Shown here in pieces: positions 2,718 through 56,208 of a DNA stretch of 64,000 bases. This DNA comes from Spirosoma fluviale. Its GTDB lineage: Bacteria; Bacteroidota; Bacteroidia; Cytophagales; Spirosomataceae. How positions within the stretch are numbered: position 1 is the stretch's first letter; each line of letters begins with the position of its first letter. The stretch is from assembly GCF_900230225.1 (NCBI RefSeq), contig NZ_OCNH01000002.1, positions 311,844 through 375,843 on the forward strand, given 5' to 3'. Position numbers and translations under genes: made by a program. Below the pieces are notes generated by a model that was not told the DNA's origin, did no database searches, and saw nothing but the letters and a program-made list of their open reading frames with translations.

Positions 2718-2730
2718 TCAACTTTAGATT

Positions 2731-2794
2731 GTAATGCCGACCGTCCGGCAGTGATTAATAGCTCATCTTACCCGACCGGGACGGTCGGCACTAC
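2731..2794. repeat. Intergenic palindrome, GACCGGGACGGTC family
   Basis: Imperfect hairpin just after the trehalase stop. The left arm (2731-2748) and right arm (2777-2794) share the core found at 28043-28079, 51348-51434 and 52789-52903. The arms differ by a few bases and the loop is about 28 nt. Confidence 0.7.
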
Positions 2795-2808
2795 AGCCTA
2801 AAACAATT

Positions 2809-28042: not shown

Positions 28043-28079
28043 GGTTGTAATGCCGACTGTCCCGGTCGGTACTACAACC
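28043..28079. repeat. Intergenic palindrome, GACCGGGACGGTC family (short form)
   Basis: GGTTGTA..TGCCGAC at the left and GGTCGG..CTACAACC at the right form an imperfect hairpin sharing the core of the repeats at 2731, 51348 and 52789. The inner stem is shortened. Confidence 0.65.
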
Positions 28080-31351: not shown

Positions 31352-31367
31352 GGGATTCTGTTGTAAA

Positions 31368-31531
31368 CTACCCCACCCCAACCCCTCCCCTTGAAAAAAG
31401 GGGAGGGGCTAGAGAATGAGTGACTTTTTATTGTTTTAATAGCTGGTCATGAAAAAACGCTCATTATCTGTGAGAAAGGTGGTCGTTGTAGCCCCTCCAC
31501 TTTTTTTAGGGGAGGGGTTGGGGTGGGGTAG
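31368..31531. repeat. Nested inverted repeat of C/G tracts upstream of GH95
   Basis: The 23-nt arms 31368-31390 and 31509-31531 are perfect inverted copies 118 bp apart. Inside them lie smaller hairpins of CCCCTCCCC against GGGGAGGGG (31382-31408) and CCCCTCC against GGAGGGG (31491-31516). The structure forms the false upstream extension of the GH95 frame. Confidence 0.75.
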
Positions 31532-31568
31532 CTTGCTAGGAACCAGTTCTTATTGTTCCCTTACTACC

Positions 31569-34180: not shown

Positions 34181-34270
34181 TTTTGTCATCCCGACGCCAG
34201 GAGGGATCTTCGCTAGTAGCAGGCATTGTTAGCGTCTAGCGAAGATCCCTCTGACGTCGGGATGACAAAA
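34181..34270. repeat. Long palindrome, AGGAGGGATCTTCG family
   Basis: Arms 34181-34215 and 34237-34270 pair with few mismatches over about 34 nt. The outer part reads GTCATCCCGACG and the inner part GAGGGATCTTCGCTA. The same inner core occurs at 45888-46004. Confidence 0.82.
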
Positions 34271-41610: not shown

Positions 41611-43609
41611 TTTCTACCGACTGTTACTTGCCGGGTTTTGCTGCATTGTATCGGCCACCCACGCCCAGACAACGACCAAACTCTGGCTGGATGAAATCAA
41701 TATCAAATCCTTCTCGGAAGGCATTCCGGCGGTATTAGGCAAAACCAACGCGGCCGGTGATTCCATGCTCATCGACGGGCAGTATTTCAGGCACGGCGTT
41801 GGGGTGAACGCTACCAGTATTCTGGCGCTTTCTCTGGACGGGAAAGCCACCGAATTTTCGGCGCTGGTAGGTGTAGACGACAAAGGGAATAAAGACTTAC
41901 CCCACACCTTTTACGTGGTCGCCGACCGCAAAATCCTGTTCGACAGCGGAGAAATGCGGCTGGGCGACGTACCCAAACCCGTAAACGTAAACCTTAACGG
42001 TGTAAAGCGACTTGGTCTATTGGTTAAAGTCAACGACGAGGGGCGCACGAAAGTCTACGCGAACTGGGCCAACGCGCAGCTGACCATGCTGGACAATTAC
42101 CGTCCCCAAAACATTCCCAATTCCGACGAGAAGTACATCCTGACGCCCCTGCCGCCACAAACGCCACGCATCAATTCGGCCAGCGTGTTCGGGGCCACAC
42201 CCGGCAACCCGGTGTTGTACCTCATTGCCGCCACGGGCGAGCGACCCATGACTTTCTCCGCCAAAGGACTTCCGAAAGGCCTGTCGCTGGACGGGAAAAC
42301 GGGCATCATTACCGGTAATGTAAAACAACGGGGAGCGTATCTGGCGACCCTGACGGCGACCAACGCGCTGGGTAAAGCCACCAAAAAACTGACCCTTAAA
42401 ATCGGTGACACCATTGCCCTGACGCCCCCCATTGGCTGGAACGGCTGGAACTCCTGGGCCAGAAACATCGACCAGGGAAAAGTTATTGCCTCGGCCGATG
42501 CGCTGGTGAAAATGGGCCTGCGTGACCACGGCTGGACCTACATCAACATCGACGACGCCTGGCAGGGCAAACGGGGCGGTAAATTCAACGGCATTCAGCC
42601 CAACGAGAAGTTTCCGACTTTCCAGAAAATGGTCGATTACGTACATGGGCTGGGCCTAAAAGTCGGTGTGTATTCTACGCCCATGATTACGAGTTATGCG
42701 GGCTACATCGGCGGCTCGTCGGATTTCAAGGATGGTCATATTACCGACGCTATCATCACCAACAAACGCGCATTTCGATACGTTGGTAAGTACAGGTTTG
42801 AGACCAACGACGCTAACCAACTAGCCGCGTGGGGCATCGATTACCTCAAATACGACTGGCGCATCGAGGTGCCGTCGGCCGAGCGGATGTCGGTAGCACT
42901 CAAACAATCTGGTCGCGATATCCTGTACAGTATTTCCAATTCGGCACCCTTCGCCAACGTCAAAGACTGGGCTCGCCTGACCAACAGTTACCGTACCGGC
43001 CCTGATATTCGCGACAGTTGGAACAGCCTGTTTGTATCGGCCTTCACGCTCGACAAATGGGCTCCTTACGGCGGTCCCGGCCACTGGAACGACCCCGACA
43101 TGATGATCGTGGGCAACGTAACCACAGGCACCCAACTGCACCCCACCCGCCTGACGCCCGACGAGCAATACAGCCATGTGAGTTTATTCAGCCTGTTGTC
43201 GGCCCCCATGCTCATCGGTTGCCCCATTGAACAACTCGACGCCTTTACGCTGAATCTGCTCACCAACGACGAAGTGATCGAGATCGATCAGGACCCGCTG
43301 GGCAAGTCGGCCAGGCTGGTCATGAACGAAAATGGTATGCAGGTCTGGCTGAAACCGCTGGCAGACGGGTCGTATGCCGTGGGCCTCTTCAACGTCGGTG
43401 ATTTCGGGAAAACACCCGCGTCTTATTTTCGCTGGGGTGATGAGAAACCGAAATCATTCACATTTGATTTTATAAAAGTCGGTTTAACCGGAAAGTACCG
43501 GCTGCGCGATGTGTGGCGTCAGCAGAATTTAGGCAATTTTACACGCTCATTCAAAACCGAAATCCGTCATCACGGTGTTGTGATGCTACGAGTATTTTCG
43601 GAAAAGTAA
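41603..43609 (+). CDS. GH27 alpha-galactosidase with N-terminal NPCBM domain, copy A
   Basis: Retaining glycosidase removing terminal alpha-galactose (or alpha-N-acetylgalactosamine in some members). The protein has 668 residues: signal peptide (ends ATHAQ), NPCBM carbohydrate-binding domain (about 22-150), a putative Ig/He_PIG-like domain (about 175-265), and the GH27 barrel starting TPPIGWNGWNSWARNID. Nucleophile Asp418 is in LKYDWRIE and acid/base Asp468 in RTGPDIRDSW. The C-terminal beta domain is complete. It overlaps the esterase gene by 8 bp. A paralogue of identical length lies at 46018. Confidence 0.92.
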   Translation: MTNFYRLLLAGFCCIVSATHAQTTTKLWLDEINIKSFSEGIPAVLGKTNAAGDSMLIDGQYFRHGVGVNATSILALSLDGKATEFSALVGVDDKGNKDLPHTFYVVADRKILFDSGEMRLGDVPKPVNVNLNGVKRLGLLVKVNDEGRTKVYANWANAQLTMLDNYRPQNIPNSDEKYILTPLPPQTPRINSASVFGATPGNPVLYLIAATGERPMTFSAKGLPKGLSLDGKTGIITGNVKQRGAYLATLTATNALGKATKKLTLKIGDTIALTPPIGWNGWNSWARNIDQGKVIASADALVKMGLRDHGWTYINIDDAWQGKRGGKFNGIQPNEKFPTFQKMVDYVHGLGLKVGVYSTPMITSYAGYIGGSSDFKDGHITDAIITNKRAFRYVGKYRFETNDANQLAAWGIDYLKYDWRIEVPSAERMSVALKQSGRDILYSISNSAPFANVKDWARLTNSYRTGPDIRDSWNSLFVSAFTLDKWAPYGGPGHWNDPDMMIVGNVTTGTQLHPTRLTPDEQYSHVSLFSLLSAPMLIGCPIEQLDAFTLNLLTNDEVIEIDQDPLGKSARLVMNENGMQVWLKPLADGSYAVGLFNVGDFGKTPASYFRWGDEKPKSFTFDFIKVGLTGKYRLRDVWRQQNLGNFTRSFKTEIRHHGVVMLRVFSEK

Positions 43610-43630: not shown

Positions 43631-45880
43631 ATGGCTAAGACAAAACGCTTTACGTTAGCAGTTGCCTCAGTAGTAGTGCTTTCAATTTTTATGCTGGGGT
43701 TTCAGCAAATCTCCGGTATCAAACCTGCCTTTTCACTCGACGATTACAAAATAGAGGAGGGATTTGAATTAAAATTAATTGCGTCGGAATCGTTGTTGAA
43801 AGCCCCCGTCAGCCTGGATTTCGACAACAAAGGCCGGATGTGGGTGGTCGAAATGATCGGCTACATGCCCAACCTGGAAGGCATCGGCGAGGAGGAACCC
43901 ACCGGCCGAATTTCTATCCTCGAAGACCGGAATAAGGATGGCATAGCCGACCATGCGAAGGTATTTCTGGATAAGCTCGTGCTGCCTAGAGCGATGGCGC
44001 ACGTATACGGCGGCCTGCTGTACGTGGATGGTCCCAAGCTTTGGTTTGTCGAGATCAACAACGACAAGCCCGGCAAAAAAACGCTGGTCGACCCGGTCTA
44101 TGCCGAAGGCGGTAACGTGGAGCACTCGTCCAATGGGTTGATGATGAACATCGACAACTGGATTTATAACGCCAATTATAACTTTCGGTATCAGCTGAAA
44201 AACGGCAAATGGCTGAAAGAACCAACCACCGACCGGGGGCAGTGGGGCATCACGAGAGACAATTTCGGACGGCTGTACTACAACAACAACTCCACCAATT
44301 TGCAGGGCGATTTTGTGCTGCCCAACAAAGTAATCCGAAACAAGTATTTTAAGCCGACCGTCGCCGAACACCAGCGACTGGCCAGCAACCGCGTGTACCC
44401 CATTCATCAAACGTCGGTCAATCGGGGCTACCAGACAGGTGTTCTGGACGAAAAAGGCTTGTTAAAAGAGGTGACGGCTGCCTGCGGGCCACTGGTGTAC
44501 CGGGGTGGCGCTTTCCCGGACGCGTACAATCAGAACGCGTTTGTCTGCGTGCCCGAAGCCAACCTGATCAAGCGAAATATCCTGAACTTTAAGGGCCTTC
44601 AAACAACGGCCAGTCAGGCTACGGAAGGCAGAGAATTTATTGCGTCGACGGACGAAGGGTTTCGGCCGGTGAATCTGTTTATGGGTCCCGACGGTGCCAT
44701 GTACGTGGTCGATATGCACCGGGGCATCATTCAGCACAAGGCGTATATCTCGCAATACCTGACCGAACAACTTGCCAGTAAAAAGCTGGATACACTGCAA
44801 AATGCCGGGCGTATTTTGAAGATCACGAGCAAAACAAACAAGCTCAATCCAACCCCCGATTTCACCAAAGCGACGACTGGTCAACTGGTTGCGTTGCTGA
44901 GCAACTCAAACGGCTGGTTGAGAGATCGTGCGCAACAGGTGCTGATTCAAAGAAAAGATCTTTCGGTTGTTAATCAGTTGCTTACGCTGGCTAAATCTAC
45001 CAATGAATTGGCAACGGCCATTCATGCGCTGTATGTACTGGACGGGTTAAACGCCCTTACATTTGACAATCTGAGTGCCCTGGTGAAGCAATCGAAACAG
45101 CCCGAAACCATTGCCCACGCGCTGGGCCTTCTGGAGCGCTTTGCCACACCCCAGCGGGTGGTCGGCATGAAGGCCATCAGTACCGAATTGCTGGCCCGGA
45201 ACAACGAAACGATAGACCTCTATCTGTCGATGGCGTTGAACCCGTGGCTCAACCTGTCGGAGACCACCTTCCTGCCCATGCTGTCGGAGATAGAAAAAAA
45301 ATACGCGACGCAGAAAGTAGTTCAGGAGGCTATTACCAGCGGCCTTGATGGGAAAGAGGCCGTGTATCTGGCGTCCATGAATCCGAGCGATTTTCTGAAA
45401 AATAACCTAACCCTGACCATCAGTAACCGGCAGAAAAAGCAACTGAACTCCATTTACGTAGCTGAGGTAAATGCCGTTGACGCCCGCACGAAAGGCCTGA
45501 AACTGTTCCGAACCATTTGTGCGACCTGCCACGGTGCCGATGGGAAAGGCATTCAGGATTTGGCCCCGCCCCTCAAAGGCTCCGAATACATTGACGGCTC
45601 CATGAAACGGCTGGCGGCTATCATTCTCCACGGCGTCAGCGGGCCGATTCACGTGAACGGGAAGCTCTACCAGTTGAACAACGAAATGCCCGCCCTACTC
45701 AACAACAAGGACATCAGCGATCAGGACATTGTCGATATTATCCGCTATACCCAGAATGCCCTTGCCAAAGAAGGGAAAGGCATTTCGACTGCTGACGTCA
45801 AAAAAATGAGAGACAAAAAGCCCTCGGGTAGTGGCGTTCTGACCGAAAAACAGCTGCTCGAAGAGGATTTTGAGAAGTGA
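43631..45880 (+). CDS. Haem-c beta-propeller dehydrogenase with HEAT repeats, copy A
   Basis: A 749-residue protein of the 'membrane-bound dehydrogenase / PVC-type haem-binding' group. A signal-anchor is followed by a six-bladed propeller (GRMWVVEMIGYMPNLEG, GPDGAMYVVDMHRGI), HEAT-like helices (about 420-560) and a C-terminal cytochrome c with CATCH at 630-634 and a Met-containing NNEMPALL stretch. It likely oxidises a sugar in the periplasm or at the surface and passes electrons to the respiratory chain. It lies between two GH27 genes, 21 bp after the first, and is paralogous to 49065-51347. Confidence 0.85.
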   Translation: MAKTKRFTLAVASVVVLSIFMLGFQQISGIKPAFSLDDYKIEEGFELKLIASESLLKAPVSLDFDNKGRMWVVEMIGYMPNLEGIGEEEPTGRISILEDRNKDGIADHAKVFLDKLVLPRAMAHVYGGLLYVDGPKLWFVEINNDKPGKKTLVDPVYAEGGNVEHSSNGLMMNIDNWIYNANYNFRYQLKNGKWLKEPTTDRGQWGITRDNFGRLYYNNNSTNLQGDFVLPNKVIRNKYFKPTVAEHQRLASNRVYPIHQTSVNRGYQTGVLDEKGLLKEVTAACGPLVYRGGAFPDAYNQNAFVCVPEANLIKRNILNFKGLQTTASQATEGREFIASTDEGFRPVNLFMGPDGAMYVVDMHRGIIQHKAYISQYLTEQLASKKLDTLQNAGRILKITSKTNKLNPTPDFTKATTGQLVALLSNSNGWLRDRAQQVLIQRKDLSVVNQLLTLAKSTNELATAIHALYVLDGLNALTFDNLSALVKQSKQPETIAHALGLLERFATPQRVVGMKAISTELLARNNETIDLYLSMALNPWLNLSETTFLPMLSEIEKKYATQKVVQEAITSGLDGKEAVYLASMNPSDFLKNNLTLTISNRQKKQLNSIYVAEVNAVDARTKGLKLFRTICATCHGADGKGIQDLAPPLKGSEYIDGSMKRLAAIILHGVSGPIHVNGKLYQLNNEMPALLNNKDISDQDIVDIIRYTQNALAKEGKGISTADVKKMRDKKPSGSGVLTEKQLLEEDFEK

Positions 45881-45887
45881 TGTTTTT

Positions 45888-46004
45888 TGTCATGGCACCG
45901 GCCACCCGGCCCGACGCAGGAGGGATCTTCGGCAGGCGGGCTATTTTTTACTCTTACCGAAGATCCCTCCTGACGTCGGGCCGGGTGGCCGGTGCCAGGA
46001 CAAA
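45888..46004. repeat. Very long palindrome, AGGAGGGATCTTCG family, extended form
   Basis: Arms of about 48 nt (left from 45888, right 45957-46004) with only a few mismatches around an AT-rich loop. The inner core is shared with 34181-34270. Between the GTCAT end and the core both arms carry the additional GGCACCGGCCACCCGG segment, mirrored. It lies just before the second GH27 gene. Confidence 0.85.
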
Positions 46005-46017
46005 CAACCCACCGAAC

Positions 46018-48024
46018 ATGACTAAACTCTTTACCACTCTTTTACTTACGTTAACCCTCGGCGCGCAGGCCCAGAAAACCACCACCGTCTGGCTCGACGA
46101 TCTGCCGATTCAAACGTTCTCGGAAGGACTCCGGCCGGTAAAGGCAAAACACAATTACAGCGACGACACGCTGCGCATCAACGGTACGCGCTATGTACGC
46201 GGGCTGGGTGCTCAATCGCCCTGTGTGCTGGCGTTTGACCTTGGCAAAAAAGCCACCCGTTTCTCGGCCCTGATCGCGGCCGATGATCTGGGCAACAAAG
46301 ACATACCGCTGACCTTCTATGTGTTAGGCGATGGCAAGGTGCTTTTCGAGAGTAAGCCCATGCGCATCGGCGATGCGCCCGTTCCTATCAACGTCGACCT
46401 GACCGGGATCAGGCAGCTTGGGCTTCTGGTGACCGATAAAGTAGGCGGTGTTGGCAACAAGCGAACCTACTGCAACTGGGTCGATGCGCAGGTCGATATG
46501 CTTGGCAACGCCATGCCCGAACACATTCAGCACCCCGGCGAAACGTATAATTTAACGCCACCGCCGTCGAAAAAACCGAAAATCAATTCGGCAACGCTGT
46601 TTGGGGCCACACCCGGCAATCCGTTTCTGTATCTCATTGCGGCAACGGGTGATCGACCGATGACGTTCTCCGCGAAAGGGATTCCGCAGGGGCTGACGCT
46701 GGACCAGAAAACGGGCATCATCACCGGCCGCGTGGCCCAACGGGGAACGTACCGGGCAACACTCGGCGCGAAAAACAAGCTCGGGCAGGCTACCAAAGAA
46801 CTGACCATCAAAATCGGCGATACCATTGCCCTGACGCCCCCCATTGGCTGGAACGGCTGGAACTCCTGGGAAGCGCACATCGACCGCGAAAAGGTCATTG
46901 CCTCAGCCGAGGCAATGGTAAAAATGGGCCTGCGCGACCACGGCTGGACGTATATCAACATCGACGATGCCTGGCAGGGCAAACGGGGCGGGCCGCTCAA
47001 CGCCCTGCAACCCAACGCGAAATTTCCGCAGTTTAAGGAGATGGTCGATTACATTCACTCGCTTGGCTTGCGGGCGGGCCTGTATTCAACGCCCTATATT
47101 TCCAGTTACGGCGGTTACGCGGGCGCGTCGTCCAACTCGGCCTTTGGGGGCGAAACTCACGAGACGATCATGGTAGATCGGCGGGCGTTTAACCGGATTG
47201 CCAAATACCGGTTCGAGACGGAAGATGCCCGCCAAATGGCCGAATGGGGGTTCGATTTCCTGAAGTACGACTGGCGCATCGACGTTAACTCGACCGAACG
47301 GATGTCGACCGCCCTAAAAAAGTCGGGCCGGGACATTATTTTCAGTTTATCCAATAACGCCCCCTTCGAAAAAGTAGCCGATTGGGCGCGGTTGTCGAAC
47401 ATGTACCGCACCGGCCCCGACATCAAAGACAGTTGGACGAGCCTGTACCTAACCTCGTTTTCGCTCGACAAATGGGCTCCCTACACCGGCCCCGGCCACT
47501 GGGCCGACCCCGACATGATGATTCTGGGTAAAGTGTCCATTGGTCCCGTCCTGCACGACACCCGCCTGACGCCTGACGAGCAATACAGCCACGTCAGCAT
47601 CTTCAGTCTGCTGGCTGCGCCCATGCTGATCGGCTGCCCCATTGAGCAACTCGATGCGTTTACCCTGAATCTGCTCACCAACGATGAGGTCATCGCCGTC
47701 AACCAGGACCCGCTGGGCAAACCCGCCCGACTGATCCGAAATGAAAACGGCGTCGAAATCTGGCTTAAACCGCTGGACGATGGTTCGTATGCCGTGGGCC
47801 TGTTCAATACGGGTGATTTTGGTAAAACACCCCAATCGTACTTCCAATGGGGCACCGAAACGCCGGAAGCCTTCACGTTCGATTTTGCCAGCATCGGCCT
47901 GAAAGGCAGCTATAAACTACGCGATCTATGGCAGCAGAAAGACTTGGGTACGTTCAGCGAGACGTTCAAGACGAGTATTCGGCATCATGGGGTAGTGATG
48001 CTTAAGATGGTTGCCCGTAAATAA
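46018..48024 (+). CDS. GH27 alpha-galactosidase with N-terminal NPCBM domain, copy B
   Basis: Paralogue of the enzyme at 41603, with the same 668-residue length, domain order and residue numbers (nucleophile Asp418 in LKYDWRID; RTGPDIKDSW). The two are highly similar through the catalytic barrel and more different in the N-terminal module. The start at 46018 (MTKLFTTLLLTLTLGAQAQ) gives a good signal peptide. The frame is open from 45877, but that part is the intergenic palindrome. Two copies may differ in linkage or be specialised for different galactosides. Confidence 0.92.
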   Translation: MTKLFTTLLLTLTLGAQAQKTTTVWLDDLPIQTFSEGLRPVKAKHNYSDDTLRINGTRYVRGLGAQSPCVLAFDLGKKATRFSALIAADDLGNKDIPLTFYVLGDGKVLFESKPMRIGDAPVPINVDLTGIRQLGLLVTDKVGGVGNKRTYCNWVDAQVDMLGNAMPEHIQHPGETYNLTPPPSKKPKINSATLFGATPGNPFLYLIAATGDRPMTFSAKGIPQGLTLDQKTGIITGRVAQRGTYRATLGAKNKLGQATKELTIKIGDTIALTPPIGWNGWNSWEAHIDREKVIASAEAMVKMGLRDHGWTYINIDDAWQGKRGGPLNALQPNAKFPQFKEMVDYIHSLGLRAGLYSTPYISSYGGYAGASSNSAFGGETHETIMVDRRAFNRIAKYRFETEDARQMAEWGFDFLKYDWRIDVNSTERMSTALKKSGRDIIFSLSNNAPFEKVADWARLSNMYRTGPDIKDSWTSLYLTSFSLDKWAPYTGPGHWADPDMMILGKVSIGPVLHDTRLTPDEQYSHVSIFSLLAAPMLIGCPIEQLDAFTLNLLTNDEVIAVNQDPLGKPARLIRNENGVEIWLKPLDDGSYAVGLFNTGDFGKTPQSYFQWGTETPEAFTFDFASIGLKGSYKLRDLWQQKDLGTFSETFKTSIRHHGVVMLKMVARK

Positions 48025-51347: not shown

Positions 51348-51434
51348 TTGTTTTGTGTAGTACCGACCGTCCCGGTCGGGTGTGAAGTAAGTTGCCTTAC
51401 ACCCGACCGGGACGGTCGGTACTACACAAAACAA
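51348..51434. repeat. Perfect 36-bp palindrome, GACCGGGACGGTC family
   Basis: Arms 51348-51383 and 51399-51434 are identical inverted copies with a 15-nt loop, GAAGTAAGTTGCCTT. The same loop occurs in 52789-52903. The repeat begins right at the stop of the cytochrome gene. Confidence 0.92.
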
Positions 51435-51461
51435 ATCCAACCCCCTTTTACCAACATAAAC

Positions 51462-52781
51462 ATGAAAGAAGAACAAGGCATTAATCGCCGGGATTTCGTT
51501 GGGAAAGCCGCTACCGCTGTGGCCGGTTTTATGATCGTTCCCCGCTTCGTGCTGGGCGGCAAACGGCCAGACGGCACCAAATATCTGGCACCCAGCGATG
51601 TTATTTCCCTGGGCTTTATCGGTACCGGCAAGCAGGGAAAAGGGCTTATTAATTCGTTTTTAGGTACGAATGAAGCCCGGATCATTGCCATCAGCGAAGT
51701 CTACAAAGCCAAAGCACAACAGGGACTGGACCGGATAAAAGCCCATTACGAAAAGAACCCGCAGTCAGGCAAGTACGGTGACGTTCCGGTCTATACCGAT
51801 TTTCGGGAGCTATTGGCCCGTAAAGACATTGACGCCGTAGTCATTGCCACCCCCGACCATTGGCACGCAGCTATGGCCGTTCGGGCGGCTCAGGCGGGCA
51901 AAGATATTTATTGCGAGAAACCACTGGCGCTTACCGTGAAAGAAGGTCGGGCCATGGTCGATGCCGCCCGCAAATACAACCGGGTGTTCCAGACGGGAAG
52001 TATGCAGCGGTCGTGGCCGGAGTTTCGGCAAACGGCCGAACTGATTCGCAATGGCTATATCGGCGAAGTAAAAACGATTAAAGTGAACGTCGGCCCACCG
52101 CCAACGCCTTACGATCTGCCTGCCGAACCTATTCCCGATGGGCTCGACTGGGGTAAATGGCTCGGCCCCAACGAGCCGGTGGCGTTCAATTCTGAACTGG
52201 CACCCCCGCTTTCGAAAGATGTGTTCCCCAATTGGCGCAACTACCGGGAGTTCGGCGGGGGCATGGTGACCGACTGGGGTGCCCATATGTTCGACATCGT
52301 GCAATGGTCGCTGGATATGGACAACAGCGGTCCCGTAGAGGTGATTGCGCCTGATGGCAAAGACCACCCGTTTCTGACCTATAAATACGACAACGGCATT
52401 GTGATGACCCATGAGAAATGGGACTGGAACAACGCCATACATTTCGTGGGGACGGAAGGTGAAATTAAAGTGCAGCGGAAAAAAATCGAAACGACACCGA
52501 TTTCATTGGCCACCAAAGAAATTGGCGAGACCGAAAAGCATGTATACAGGAGCGACAACCATTACAAGGATTTTCTGGAGGCCATGCGCAAACGCAGCAA
52601 ACCCATCTGCGACGTTGAGATCGGCCATCGCACCGCATCGGTCTGCAACATCGGTAACATTGCGTACCGACTGAATCGCCCCCTGCAATGGAATCCGAAG
52701 AAAGAACAGTTTAAGAACGATGCCGAAGCCAATGCCCTCCTCGGCCGCCCCATGAAAAATGAGTGGGGGATTAAGCTTTAA
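51462..52781 (+). CDS. Tat-exported Gfo/Idh/MocA-family oxidoreductase
   Basis: NAD(P)-dependent sugar oxidoreductase of 439 residues. It begins MKEEQGINRRDFVGKAATA, a twin-arginine signal, as expected for an enzyme exported with bound NAD. The Rossmann motif is GFIGTGKQGKGL, followed by ATPDHWHAAM and the CEKPLAL motif with the usual catalytic Lys, and WGAHMFDIVQW. The frame is open from 51348, but that is the palindrome. Members act as glycosidases by redox or as C3 dehydrogenases/epimerases. Here it could make or reduce the 3-keto sugar used by the DUF1080 protein. It is bracketed by two related palindromes. Confidence 0.88.
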   Translation: MKEEQGINRRDFVGKAATAVAGFMIVPRFVLGGKRPDGTKYLAPSDVISLGFIGTGKQGKGLINSFLGTNEARIIAISEVYKAKAQQGLDRIKAHYEKNPQSGKYGDVPVYTDFRELLARKDIDAVVIATPDHWHAAMAVRAAQAGKDIYCEKPLALTVKEGRAMVDAARKYNRVFQTGSMQRSWPEFRQTAELIRNGYIGEVKTIKVNVGPPPTPYDLPAEPIPDGLDWGKWLGPNEPVAFNSELAPPLSKDVFPNWRNYREFGGGMVTDWGAHMFDIVQWSLDMDNSGPVEVIAPDGKDHPFLTYKYDNGIVMTHEKWDWNNAIHFVGTEGEIKVQRKKIETTPISLATKEIGETEKHVYRSDNHYKDFLEAMRKRSKPICDVEIGHRTASVCNIGNIAYRLNRPLQWNPKKEQFKNDAEANALLGRPMKNEWGIKL

Positions 52782-52788
52782 GTAATGC

Positions 52789-52903
52789 CGGTTTGTGTAG
52801 TGCCGAGCGTCGGCCCGGCGACCGTCCCGGTCGGCCGTGAAGTAAGTTGCCTTACACCCGACCGGGACGGTCGCCGGGCCGACGCTCGGCACTACACAAA
52901 CCG
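52789..52903. repeat. Perfect 46-bp palindrome, GACCGGGACGGTC family, expanded form
   Basis: Arms 52789-52834 and 52858-52903 are perfect inverted copies with a 23-nt loop that includes GTGAAGTAAGTTGCCTTAC, as in the repeat at 51348. Relative to that copy both arms carry the additional GCGTCGGCCCGGCGA or its complement. Confidence 0.92.
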
Positions 52904-53037
52904 TTTCTTTCAGCCGCTCGGCATTTTCGGCGATGCGGAGTTACTGTATCATTGGTCTTGTCCTCACAGACCGAAGATACGGTTGCGCGGCTTCCCTGCC
53001 GCGTTACGTATACAGAACCAATACCCCACCAATCAGA

Positions 53038-55134: not shown

Positions 55135-56208
55135 CTAAACCGTTGCGCCTTCTTTCAGCCGTTCGGCGTTTTCGGCGATGCGAAGTTGCTCGATGAATTC
55201 GCCGATGCCACCGTCCATCACAGCAGGCAGGTTATACACTGTTAGCCCGATGCGGTGATCCGTTACGCGGCTTTGGGGGTAATTGTAGGTCCGGATCTTG
55301 TCGGAACGGTCGCCACTGCCTACCATCGTTTTGCGCTGGGAAGCGATGGCGTCGTTGTGTTTCTGTAATTCGATTTCGTATATCCGCGACCGTAATACCG
55401 TCAGGGCTTTGTCGAAGTTTTTTAACTGCGACCGCTCATCCTGGCACTGAACAACGATACCGGATGGTATGTGAGTAAGCCGCACCGCCGAATAGGTAGT
55501 GTTTACCGATTGACCACCCGCCCCTGACGAACAGAAGGTATCCTTCCGAATGTCGTTCATGTTGAGCTCAACGTCCACTTCTTCGGCTTCGGGCAGCACG
55601 GCAACGCTGGCCGCCGAGGTATGAATACGGCCCTGGGTTTCGGTAGCCGGTACACGCTGCACCCGGTGAACGCCCGACTCGAATTTCAGTTTGCCGTATA
55701 CATCTTCGCCTTCTACTTCGGTAATAATCTCTTTGTAACCACCAGACGTTCCTTCGGTAAAGTCGACCAGCGACATTTTCCAGCCCATTTTCTCGCAGAA
55801 ACGTTGGTACATGCGGAAAATATCGCCCGCAAAAATGGCCGCTTCGTCGCCACCGGTGCCTCCCCGAATTTCCAGAATGACGTTTTTGCTGTCGTTCGGG
55901 TCTTTCGGCATCAGCATTTCCTTGAGGATTTCCTCCAGTGTATCCCGGCGAGGCAGCAGCTCGTCCAGTTCGCCTTTGGCCATTTCCCGAAAATCTTCGT
56001 CCTTTTCGGTCGCGATGATTTTCTTTGCATTGTCGATCTCTTCAAGCAGTTGCAGGTAGGCCTGGTACTGCACGACGATCTTTTCCAGATCCTTGTATTC
56101 TTTGCTCAACTTCATAAACCGCTTCTGGTCCGAAACTGCTTCGGGCTGCACGATTTGTTGAGCTACTTCGTTGAAGCGTTCGCGGATGGCTTCTAACTGG
56201 TCAAGCAT
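55135..56208 (-). CDS. prfA: Peptide chain release factor 1
   Basis: Recognises UAA and UAG stop codons and triggers peptide release on the ribosome. The protein has 357 residues, normal length. The codon-reading tripeptide PAT is at 187-189 (RVPATETQGRIHTSA) and the catalytic GGQ at 231-233 (GAGGQSVNTTYSAV). The tripeptide marks it as RF1 rather than RF2. Start at 56208 (MLDQLEAIRE) is standard. A -7-like box lies upstream. Confidence 0.96.
   Translation of the reverse strand: MLDQLEAIRERFNEVAQQIVQPEAVSDQKRFMKLSKEYKDLEKIVVQYQAYLQLLEEIDNAKKIIATEKDEDFREMAKGELDELLPRRDTLEEILKEMLMPKDPNDSKNVILEIRGGTGGDEAAIFAGDIFRMYQRFCEKMGWKMSLVDFTEGTSGGYKEIITEVEGEDVYGKLKFESGVHRVQRVPATETQGRIHTSAASVAVLPEAEEVDVELNMNDIRKDTFCSSGAGGQSVNTTYSAVRLTHIPSGIVVQCQDERSQLKNFDKALTVLRSRIYEIELQKHNDAIASQRKTMVGSGDRSDKIRTYNYPQSRVTDHRIGLTVYNLPAVMDGGIGEFIEQLRIAENAERLKEGATV

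Follow-up and report, generated by a model that had tools for sequence, protein, structure and literature searches.

The two perfect palindromes that flank a Gfo/Idh/MocA-family oxidoreductase gene in Spirosoma fluviale are, with high probability, REPINs: non-autonomous hairpins that rely for their spread on a RAYT transposase encoded in the same genome and consist of two inverted GTAG-type REPs and a spacer, with the gene between them being resident. The window analyzed here is the whole 64,000-nucleotide stretch of DNA in which both palindromes lie, and its features are collected in Table 1. S. fluviale is named as such throughout; the compared genomes carry G numbers (from G001 to G035 in style) and the fetched loci carry L numbers.

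Table 1. Positions of the two REPINs, their parts and associated features (window positions unless a contig is given).
Feature	Position	Strand	Remarks
Copy 1, REPIN of two short REPs, inverted	51348–51434		perfect 36-bp arms, 51348–51383 / 51399–51434
Copy 1, left REP	51357–51379	+	GTAGTACCGACCGTCCCGGTCGG
Copy 1, spacer	51380–51402		GTGTGAAGTAAGTTGCCTTACAC; inverted in the orthologous REPIN of G035
Copy 1, right REP	51403–51425	−	
Copy 2, REPIN of two long-type REPs	52789–52903		perfect 46-bp arms, 52789–52834 / 52858–52903
Copy 2, left long REP	52797–52834	+	
Copy 2, left 15-bp segment	52807–52821	+	GCGTCGGCCCGGCGA; distinguishes the long REP type
Copy 2, spacer	52835–52857		equal to the copy 1 spacer except for the first two bases
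Copy 2, right long REP	52858–52895	−	
Copy 2, right-arm 15-bp segment	52871–52885	−	GCGTCGGCCCGGCGA
Decayed REPIN, same family	2730–2796		left REP truncated, right REP intact
Short single hairpin, same family	28046–28076		GTA-type ends on both sides
Gfo/Idh/MocA-family oxidoreductase gene	51462–52781	+	between both REPINs, resident; ATG start inferred, mechanical ORF from 51348
Copy (90%) of the release-factor gene 3′ end (55150–55190)	52905–52945		41 bp, directly after copy 2
Cognate RAYT gene (HuH/Y1 tyrosine transposase)	C8:287178–287819		S. fluviale genome, approximately 24 kb upstream of the window

Architecture of the two palindromes

The first-pass annotation had described perfect arms of 36 and 46 bp around a common centre, 15 additional bp in the left arm of copy 2 with the exact complement in its right arm, and outer ends that differ symmetrically. 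All of this was confirmed to the base. The 21-bp centre GTGAAGTAAGTTGCCTTACAC is identical in both copies (51382–51402 and 52837–52857). It is preceded by GT in copy 1 and by CC in copy 2, which is without the inner GTGT/ACAC pairs of copy 1, and the outer ends read TTG/CAA and CGG/CCG, respectively. As single-stranded DNA, the two copies fold with energies of −48 to −76 kcal mol−1 (z scores of −14.7 to −18.3), and for each of the four strands 0 of 200 shuffled sequences folded as well as the real one. Allowing up to three mismatches, there is no third copy of the centre in the window (shuffles gave 0) or in the 7.8-Mb genome. The 15-bp segment GCGTCGGCCCGGCGA does not occur in the window beyond the two arms of copy 2 at up to two mismatches.

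The window also holds other repeats. A second hairpin family of the CCCGACGC–AGGAGGGATCTTCG type is present at 34190–34261 and 45882–46008 and is similar to the hairpin that occupies the site of copy 2 in G035 (L114). Between 42055–43082 and 46467–47497 there are two pairs of 300-bp stretches that are 71% alike, one of each pair lying within a gene (ORF 45877–48024) that is alpha-galactosidase-like and contains an NPCBM domain; these are probably paralogous genes. An inverted repeat at 31365–31534 has AAACTACCCCACCCC arms of 43 nt that are 84% complementary and 84 nt apart.

The REP family in Spirosoma

The repeated unit in both copies is GTAG-T(A/G)-CCGACCGTCCCGGTCGG, which written out is GTAG-T(A/G)-CCGACCG-TCC-CGGTCGG. 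Each arm consists of the GTAG foot followed by a small palindrome, and copy 2 carries the longer form of the unit. Two of the features that define REPINs, a GTAG-type tetranucleotide with a short palindrome and an inverted REP pair that makes up one hairpin, are found in both copies. A search with up to three mismatches found 98 half-sites in the S. fluviale genome (48 forward and 50 reverse), and the reversed-pattern control found none. Many half-sites form inverted doublets in which the foot faces outwards; others occur singly or in decayed form. The proposal of a mobile hairpin-type repeat is borne out by this family, and the expected further copies of the loop sequence take a particular form: the REPs are found genome-wide, but the 21-bp centre itself is confined to the two copies.

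With up to one mismatch, the unit was present in 10 of 99 genomes including S. fluviale, and all ten are Spirosoma. The counts are 85 in S. fluviale, 87 in G035, 46 in G024, 43 in G034, 41 in G016, 27 in G014, 12 in G026, 4 in G009, 2 in G011 and 1 in G031. Three of these genomes contain 99 distinct inverted doublets (46 in S. fluviale, where one duplicate row, L028, which is copy 2 cut at the locus end, is left out; 46 in G035; 7 in G026), and the spacer measures 17–37 nt in 93 of the 99. An identity with a known RNA family was rejected, as all eight Rfam matches were microRNA models below their gathering scores and were judged generic to any long hairpin.

A cognate RAYT transposase

The first-pass annotation had suggested looking for a RAYT-like transposase gene. 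Such a gene is present and is bracketed by two complete REPINs of the family of copies 1 and 2 (Table 1). It is one of eight matches in a Y1 transposase search of the S. fluviale genome, and no REPs of this family were found at six other Y1 loci of this genome. A relative with at least 72% identity exists in five genomes (S. fluviale, G024, G035, G034 and G014), and the gene is bracketed by REPs in all five; in G014 it is split, apparently by a frameshift. Among 59 genomes searched, 0 of 25 other RAYT-like loci carried REPs of this family. The protein scores above the cut-off of 23 bits for PF01797 (28.7 bits), and it scores 76 bits over residues 87–203 for NF047646, where the curated cut-off is 80. 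It contains the motifs NHVH (HVH at 117), WE and YILSNP (Y at 184). Judged from the family, the HVH and the tyrosine are the predicted HuH motif and catalytic residue. By analogy with the known family, the RAYT, acting on single-stranded DNA, would probably recognize the foot (GTAG) together with the REP hairpin, and would then copy or move the doublet.

Two genomes depart from this association. G016 has 41 REP sites, and its RAYT relative is only 46% identical and is without REPs of this family; G026 has 12 REP sites and only a RAYT remnant. The RAYT has therefore either been lost there or is not strictly needed.

In four species, the REPIN upstream of the RAYT has a proximal arm that ends in TTTTAC, as opposed to GTAGT(A/G)CC in the opposite arm, and this asymmetry seems to be conserved. 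The TTTTAC arms were seen at L124 (S. fluviale), L157 (G035), L190 (G034) and L191 (G024) with the head GTAAAACC, which is partly decayed in G024. A second RAYT-like gene of S. fluviale (C8:283586–284212, L217) lies approximately 3 kb away and is 55% identical to the cognate RAYT; no REPs of the family of copies 1 and 2 surround it in the fetched stretch.

Symmetric variation and spacer inversion

The heads of the left and right REPs vary together. In 87 of 96 elements of S. fluviale and G035, their identity is 0.9195; permuted pairs average 0.8756 and do not exceed 0.8989. The remaining nine were dropped for an unclassified arm, and the element finder in this count let a complementary core pass as a core; arm classes and orthologues came from the corrected finder. 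At head positions 4, 5 and 6, minor states are mirrored in 12, 4 and 22 cases, versus 25, 6 and 23 cases in which one arm alone has them. Outer ends that are symmetric over at least six bases occur in 5 of 35 elements in S. fluviale and 5 of 44 in G035 (permuted means 0.20 and 0.21). In a subfamily of S. fluviale with common GGCTTCGAGGCT flanks, which was set aside, six of eight elements have symmetric ends versus a permuted mean of 1.52. This subfamily (L009, L036, L040, L058, L059, L063 and others) has a common spacer and longer ends, and several of its copies vary symmetrically in the outer ends (GGCTTCGCGGCT, GGCATCTAGGCT, GGCTTATAAGCT). Several symmetric outer ends, such as GTAGTACCGA-TTTGTG in G035, look like a REP head, and this resemblance suggests a REPIN nested within another hairpin. 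The symmetric outer ends may have arisen when an element inserted into a palindromic site or extended one.

We aligned 17 orthologous doublets from S. fluviale, G035, G026 and G034 by both flanks. A spacer was called recognizable at z≥5 over shuffles with a margin of 2. The spacer is direct in four pairs and inverted in four, and nine spacers are too diverged to judge. In a control of 1500 non-orthologous pairs, 63 passed (19 direct, 44 inverted), which corresponds to approximately 0.5 false inversions in 17. The inverted cases include copy 1, where GTGTGAAGTAAGTTGCCTTACAC of S. fluviale corresponds to GTGTGAAGTAAGTTTTCTACAC of G035 read backwards, and the REPIN upstream of the RAYT. Two lists of 17 pairs exist with 16 in common; they differ in L046/L172 versus L166/L246, both of which are unrecognizable, and they contain the same eight recognizable pairs. 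Spacer orientation was scored with a slightly modified finder, and the copy 2 duplicate is still counted in the element totals of that step. G034 contributed 20 stretches and one further orthologous pair, whose spacer is unrecognizable, and G024, G016 and G014 were compared at the RAYT loci only.

The alignment added a ninth recognizable pair that the finder had missed, L023/L168 of S. fluviale and G035, with a direct and identical spacer. At this locus each species has its own head on both arms around one spacer: GTAATACC in S. fluviale, GTAAAACC in G035 and GTAGAACC in G026. This is a real mirrored change. Over the nine recognizable pairs there are three mirrored substitutions, all at this locus, versus 27 in one arm. 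The idea of strand-symmetric change stands insofar as symmetric variation exceeds chance; it fails as a general rule, as one-arm changes prevail.

These alignments indicate that arm equalization occurs, but that it is weak and not general. Of the two, the inversion of spacers points more strongly to arm-templated events, and the in-place inversions fit template switching between the arms. After insertion, the arms would template each other; occasional template switching would equalize them and turn the spacer, while most mutations stay in one arm, as is the pattern seen here. The arm-templated correction put forward in the first-pass annotation is thus partly upheld, with symmetry above chance and four of eight recognizable spacers inverted, but mixed arms are common. 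More speculatively, Spirosoma REPINs could be flip-flop elements in which orthologous spacers have near even odds of either orientation, and in which template switching at the fork or an in-place action of the RAYT also rewrites arms and moves spacers between neighbors. The hairpin would then be self-templating and not selected for pairing. We put this forward tentatively, as a possibility that we do not hold to be the probable one.

A possible role at the 3′ end of transcripts

Selection on RNA pairing would yield head covariation as well. No base separates copy 1 from the upstream stop codon, and copy 2 follows the stop codon of the Gfo/Idh gene at a distance of seven bases. Across 14 genomes including S. 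fluviale, 13 have a hairpin within 160 bases after the Gfo/Idh stop that scores at least 4 above the best of eight shuffles; the exception is G014. These hairpins are mostly unrelated in sequence (G004 resembles G027, and G019 resembles G001), and they look as if they replace each other there. The REPIN at this place may be one of many interchangeable 3′-end hairpins with a putative role.

It can be argued from these observations that the hairpins are kept for the transcript 3′ end, for stability or for termination without a T tract, that the symmetry is the product of RNA-pairing selection, and that REPINs are one source of such hairpins. The position of both copies directly after stop codons and the recurrence of unrelated hairpins speak for this explanation. 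Neither palindrome gave a terminator-like match, although the scan was limited to loops of 3–8 and is weak for that reason. Pairing selection also does not predict the inversion of spacers, and the 27 one-arm substitutions, set against three mirrored ones, are frequent under such a constraint. We regard this explanation as conceivable but not favored.

The inverted spacers could also have arisen from independent insertions in opposite orientation, or from excision and reinsertion by the RAYT, in place of template switching. REPINs are mobile as a family, their palindromic ends have no fixed polarity and a RAYT is present, all of which would permit this. Among the fetched elements of S. fluviale and G035, however, a spacer from an inverted pair has no similar spacer elsewhere in its genome other than at a direct neighbor, and the flanks stay aligned; together these findings make it improbable that two REPINs inserted independently at one site. 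Excision and reinsertion at the same site could still account for the inversions. Overall, these routes appear rather unlikely to us, and template switching between the arms remains the reading that we follow for the inversions.

Arm types and the 15-bp segment

In the long arm of copy 2, GCGTCGGCCCGGCGA sits between CCGA and CCGTCCC. The first-pass annotation had taken the mirrored 15 bp for a special insertion, but the segment marks a long-arm REP subfamily to which copy 2 belongs, here called longA, with 12 half-sites at nine places in the S. fluviale genome, copy 2 included. A private mirrored insertion in copy 2 was accordingly rejected. The longB type carries another inserted segment. 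The 46 doublets of S. fluviale comprise 33 short/short, five longA/longA, two longA/short and three longB/short elements, one longA arm with an unclassified arm, one flipped core and one short arm with an unclassified arm. Those of G035 (46) comprise 37 short/short, six longB/short, one longA/short, one flipped and one unclassified element, and those of G026 (7) comprise four short/short, one longA/short, one flipped and one unclassified element. One arm of L008 (S. fluviale) and of L139 (G035) has the inner palindrome reversed, with CCGACCGGGACGGTCGG in place of CCGACCGTCCCGGTCGG.

Copies with uncorrected arm differences, which the first-pass annotation had named as evidence against its own reading, are common. 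One long and one short arm are combined in 13 of the 99 REPINs from the three genomes, so correction does not reach every arm. Among the short/short doublets, the two 23-bp arms are identical in just 15 of 33 in S. fluviale, 15 of 37 in G035 and 0 of 4 in G026.

Could copy 2 still have come from a copy-1-like REPIN through a true 15-bp insertion in one arm that was then template-switched into the other? Its arms are identical at 38 of 38 REP bases, against 2, 4, 5 and 2 mismatches in the other four longA/longA elements. A single case among the orthologous pairs, a longA/short element of S. fluviale (C17:79328) with a short/short orthologue in G035, indicates that the segment can differ in one arm. 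Against this, the occurrence of GCGTCGGCCCGGCGA at eight other genome places makes a new insertion unnecessary, and the longB segment is on one side only in all nine cases (three in S. fluviale, six in G035), so equalization of such segments is not the rule. We consider this origin improbable.

The resident gene and the history of the two sites

As in S. fluviale, the Gfo/Idh gene directly adjoins the upstream gene in G035 (85% identity, query 1–1981) and G026 (83%, 1–1991). At the site of copy 1, G035 has the orthologous REPIN with the inverted spacer and G026 has an unrelated hairpin. At the site of copy 2, G035 has a hairpin of another repeat family exactly at that place (L114), and G026 has a short hairpin of the family of copies 1 and 2 with a release-factor gene directly after it. 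The first-pass annotation had proposed that the pair mobilizes the gene. Although two similar inverted-repeat elements bracket one gene and have a centre in common with nothing else in the genome, a composite mobile unit is extremely improbable, as the gene follows the same upstream gene in G035 and G026 with other hairpins at the second site; the gene is a resident and not cargo.

The release-factor gene, called prfA here, encodes PCRF and RF-1 domains. In S. fluviale the Gfo/Idh gene and prfA are separated by a sulfatase gene, and the 41-bp copy of the prfA 3′ end after copy 2 is likely to be the scar of the rearrangement that placed the sulfatase gene there. Beside the release-factor gene, G035 has a REPIN flanked by the half-hairpins GTAGTACCGA and TCGGTACTAC, where G026 has the short hairpin. 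On its left side, copy 2 is flanked by AGTAATGCCG, which is similar to AGTAGTGCCG, with which the corresponding hairpin of G026 begins. Copy 2 seems to be a younger occupant than copy 1. We infer that it resembles a recombinant of two REPINs, in which long arms are combined with the copy 1 spacer and the two bases at the junction are different. A local exchange, or copying across the intervening 1.4 kb, is the probable source of the common spacer. The pair of REPINs around the RAYT likewise has one spacer in common, and such exchange between neighbors is therefore not unique to copies 1 and 2. Occupied and empty sites had been proposed as a check on mobility; the sites do differ between relatives, but no clean empty site, excision or new insertion was seen among those compared.

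Relation to known systems and significance

The REPINs and RAYTs of Pseudomonas fluorescens SBW25 (Bertels and Rainey 2011, PMC3116915) are described, in the passages available, as extragenic, multi-copy inverted REP doublets with a spacer that are associated with a RAYT. The Spirosoma elements are likewise RAYT-associated inverted REP doublets with a spacer. Compared with these SBW25 passages, the arms in Spirosoma, a member of the Bacteroidota, often pair as perfect palindromes, contain a small palindrome of their own and come in three types (short, longA and longB). They also show spacer inversion at the same site between species, which the same passages of PMC3116915 do not mention.

According to the accessible parts of a 2013 survey (PMC3733652), GTAG-tagged REPs have a GTAG foot and a stem-loop body, and form HH dimers with the GTAG outside, heterodimers, and dimers within palindromic sequences. 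The GTAG foot, the outside-GTAG dimers, the mixed arm types and the palindromic insertion match the Spirosoma elements described here. In those parts, GTAG repeats are reported in Proteobacteria, Cyanobacteria, Chloroflexi and PVC, only CGTC repeats are reported for Bacteroidetes, and Spirosoma is not named. The excerpts of a 2018 survey (PMC6006769) describe TnpA-REP subclass 2.4 as abundant in Cyanobacteria and Bacteroidetes, with long and “double foot” GT(A/G)G REPs, the latter arising by central deletion of an inverted dimer. On that description the short Spirosoma hairpins match “double foot” REPs, and GT(A/G)G REPs as such were thus already known from Bacteroidetes. Subclass 2.7 is characterized there by [ND]HVH and YI(L/R)(N/Q)NP motifs and long GT(A/G)G REPs. 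The NHVH, WE and YILSNP motifs of the Spirosoma RAYT fit none of the motif sets in these excerpts exactly, and the genus is not named in them.

Template switching that equalizes arms and inverts spacers or loops at orthologous inverted repeats is described in the passages seen of PMC8604942 and PMC8794818. The cases given there are yeast coding repeats and RNA genes including bacterial rRNA loops, whereas those reported here are REPINs. Our literature search found no work that links template switching or inversion to REPINs or REPs. No description of a Spirosoma REPIN, RAYT or REP was found in the literature listings, and the portions consulted of the two broad surveys (PMC3733652 and PMC6006769) do not name the genus.

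With the present analysis, a GTAG-type REPIN/RAYT system is on record for Spirosoma. Given the many sequenced species of this genus, the system offers a natural test of how palindromes are kept up, that is, of the rate of arm equalization, the rate of spacer flipping and the need for a RAYT. Of these findings, the inversion of spacers in place is the one that merits further attention.
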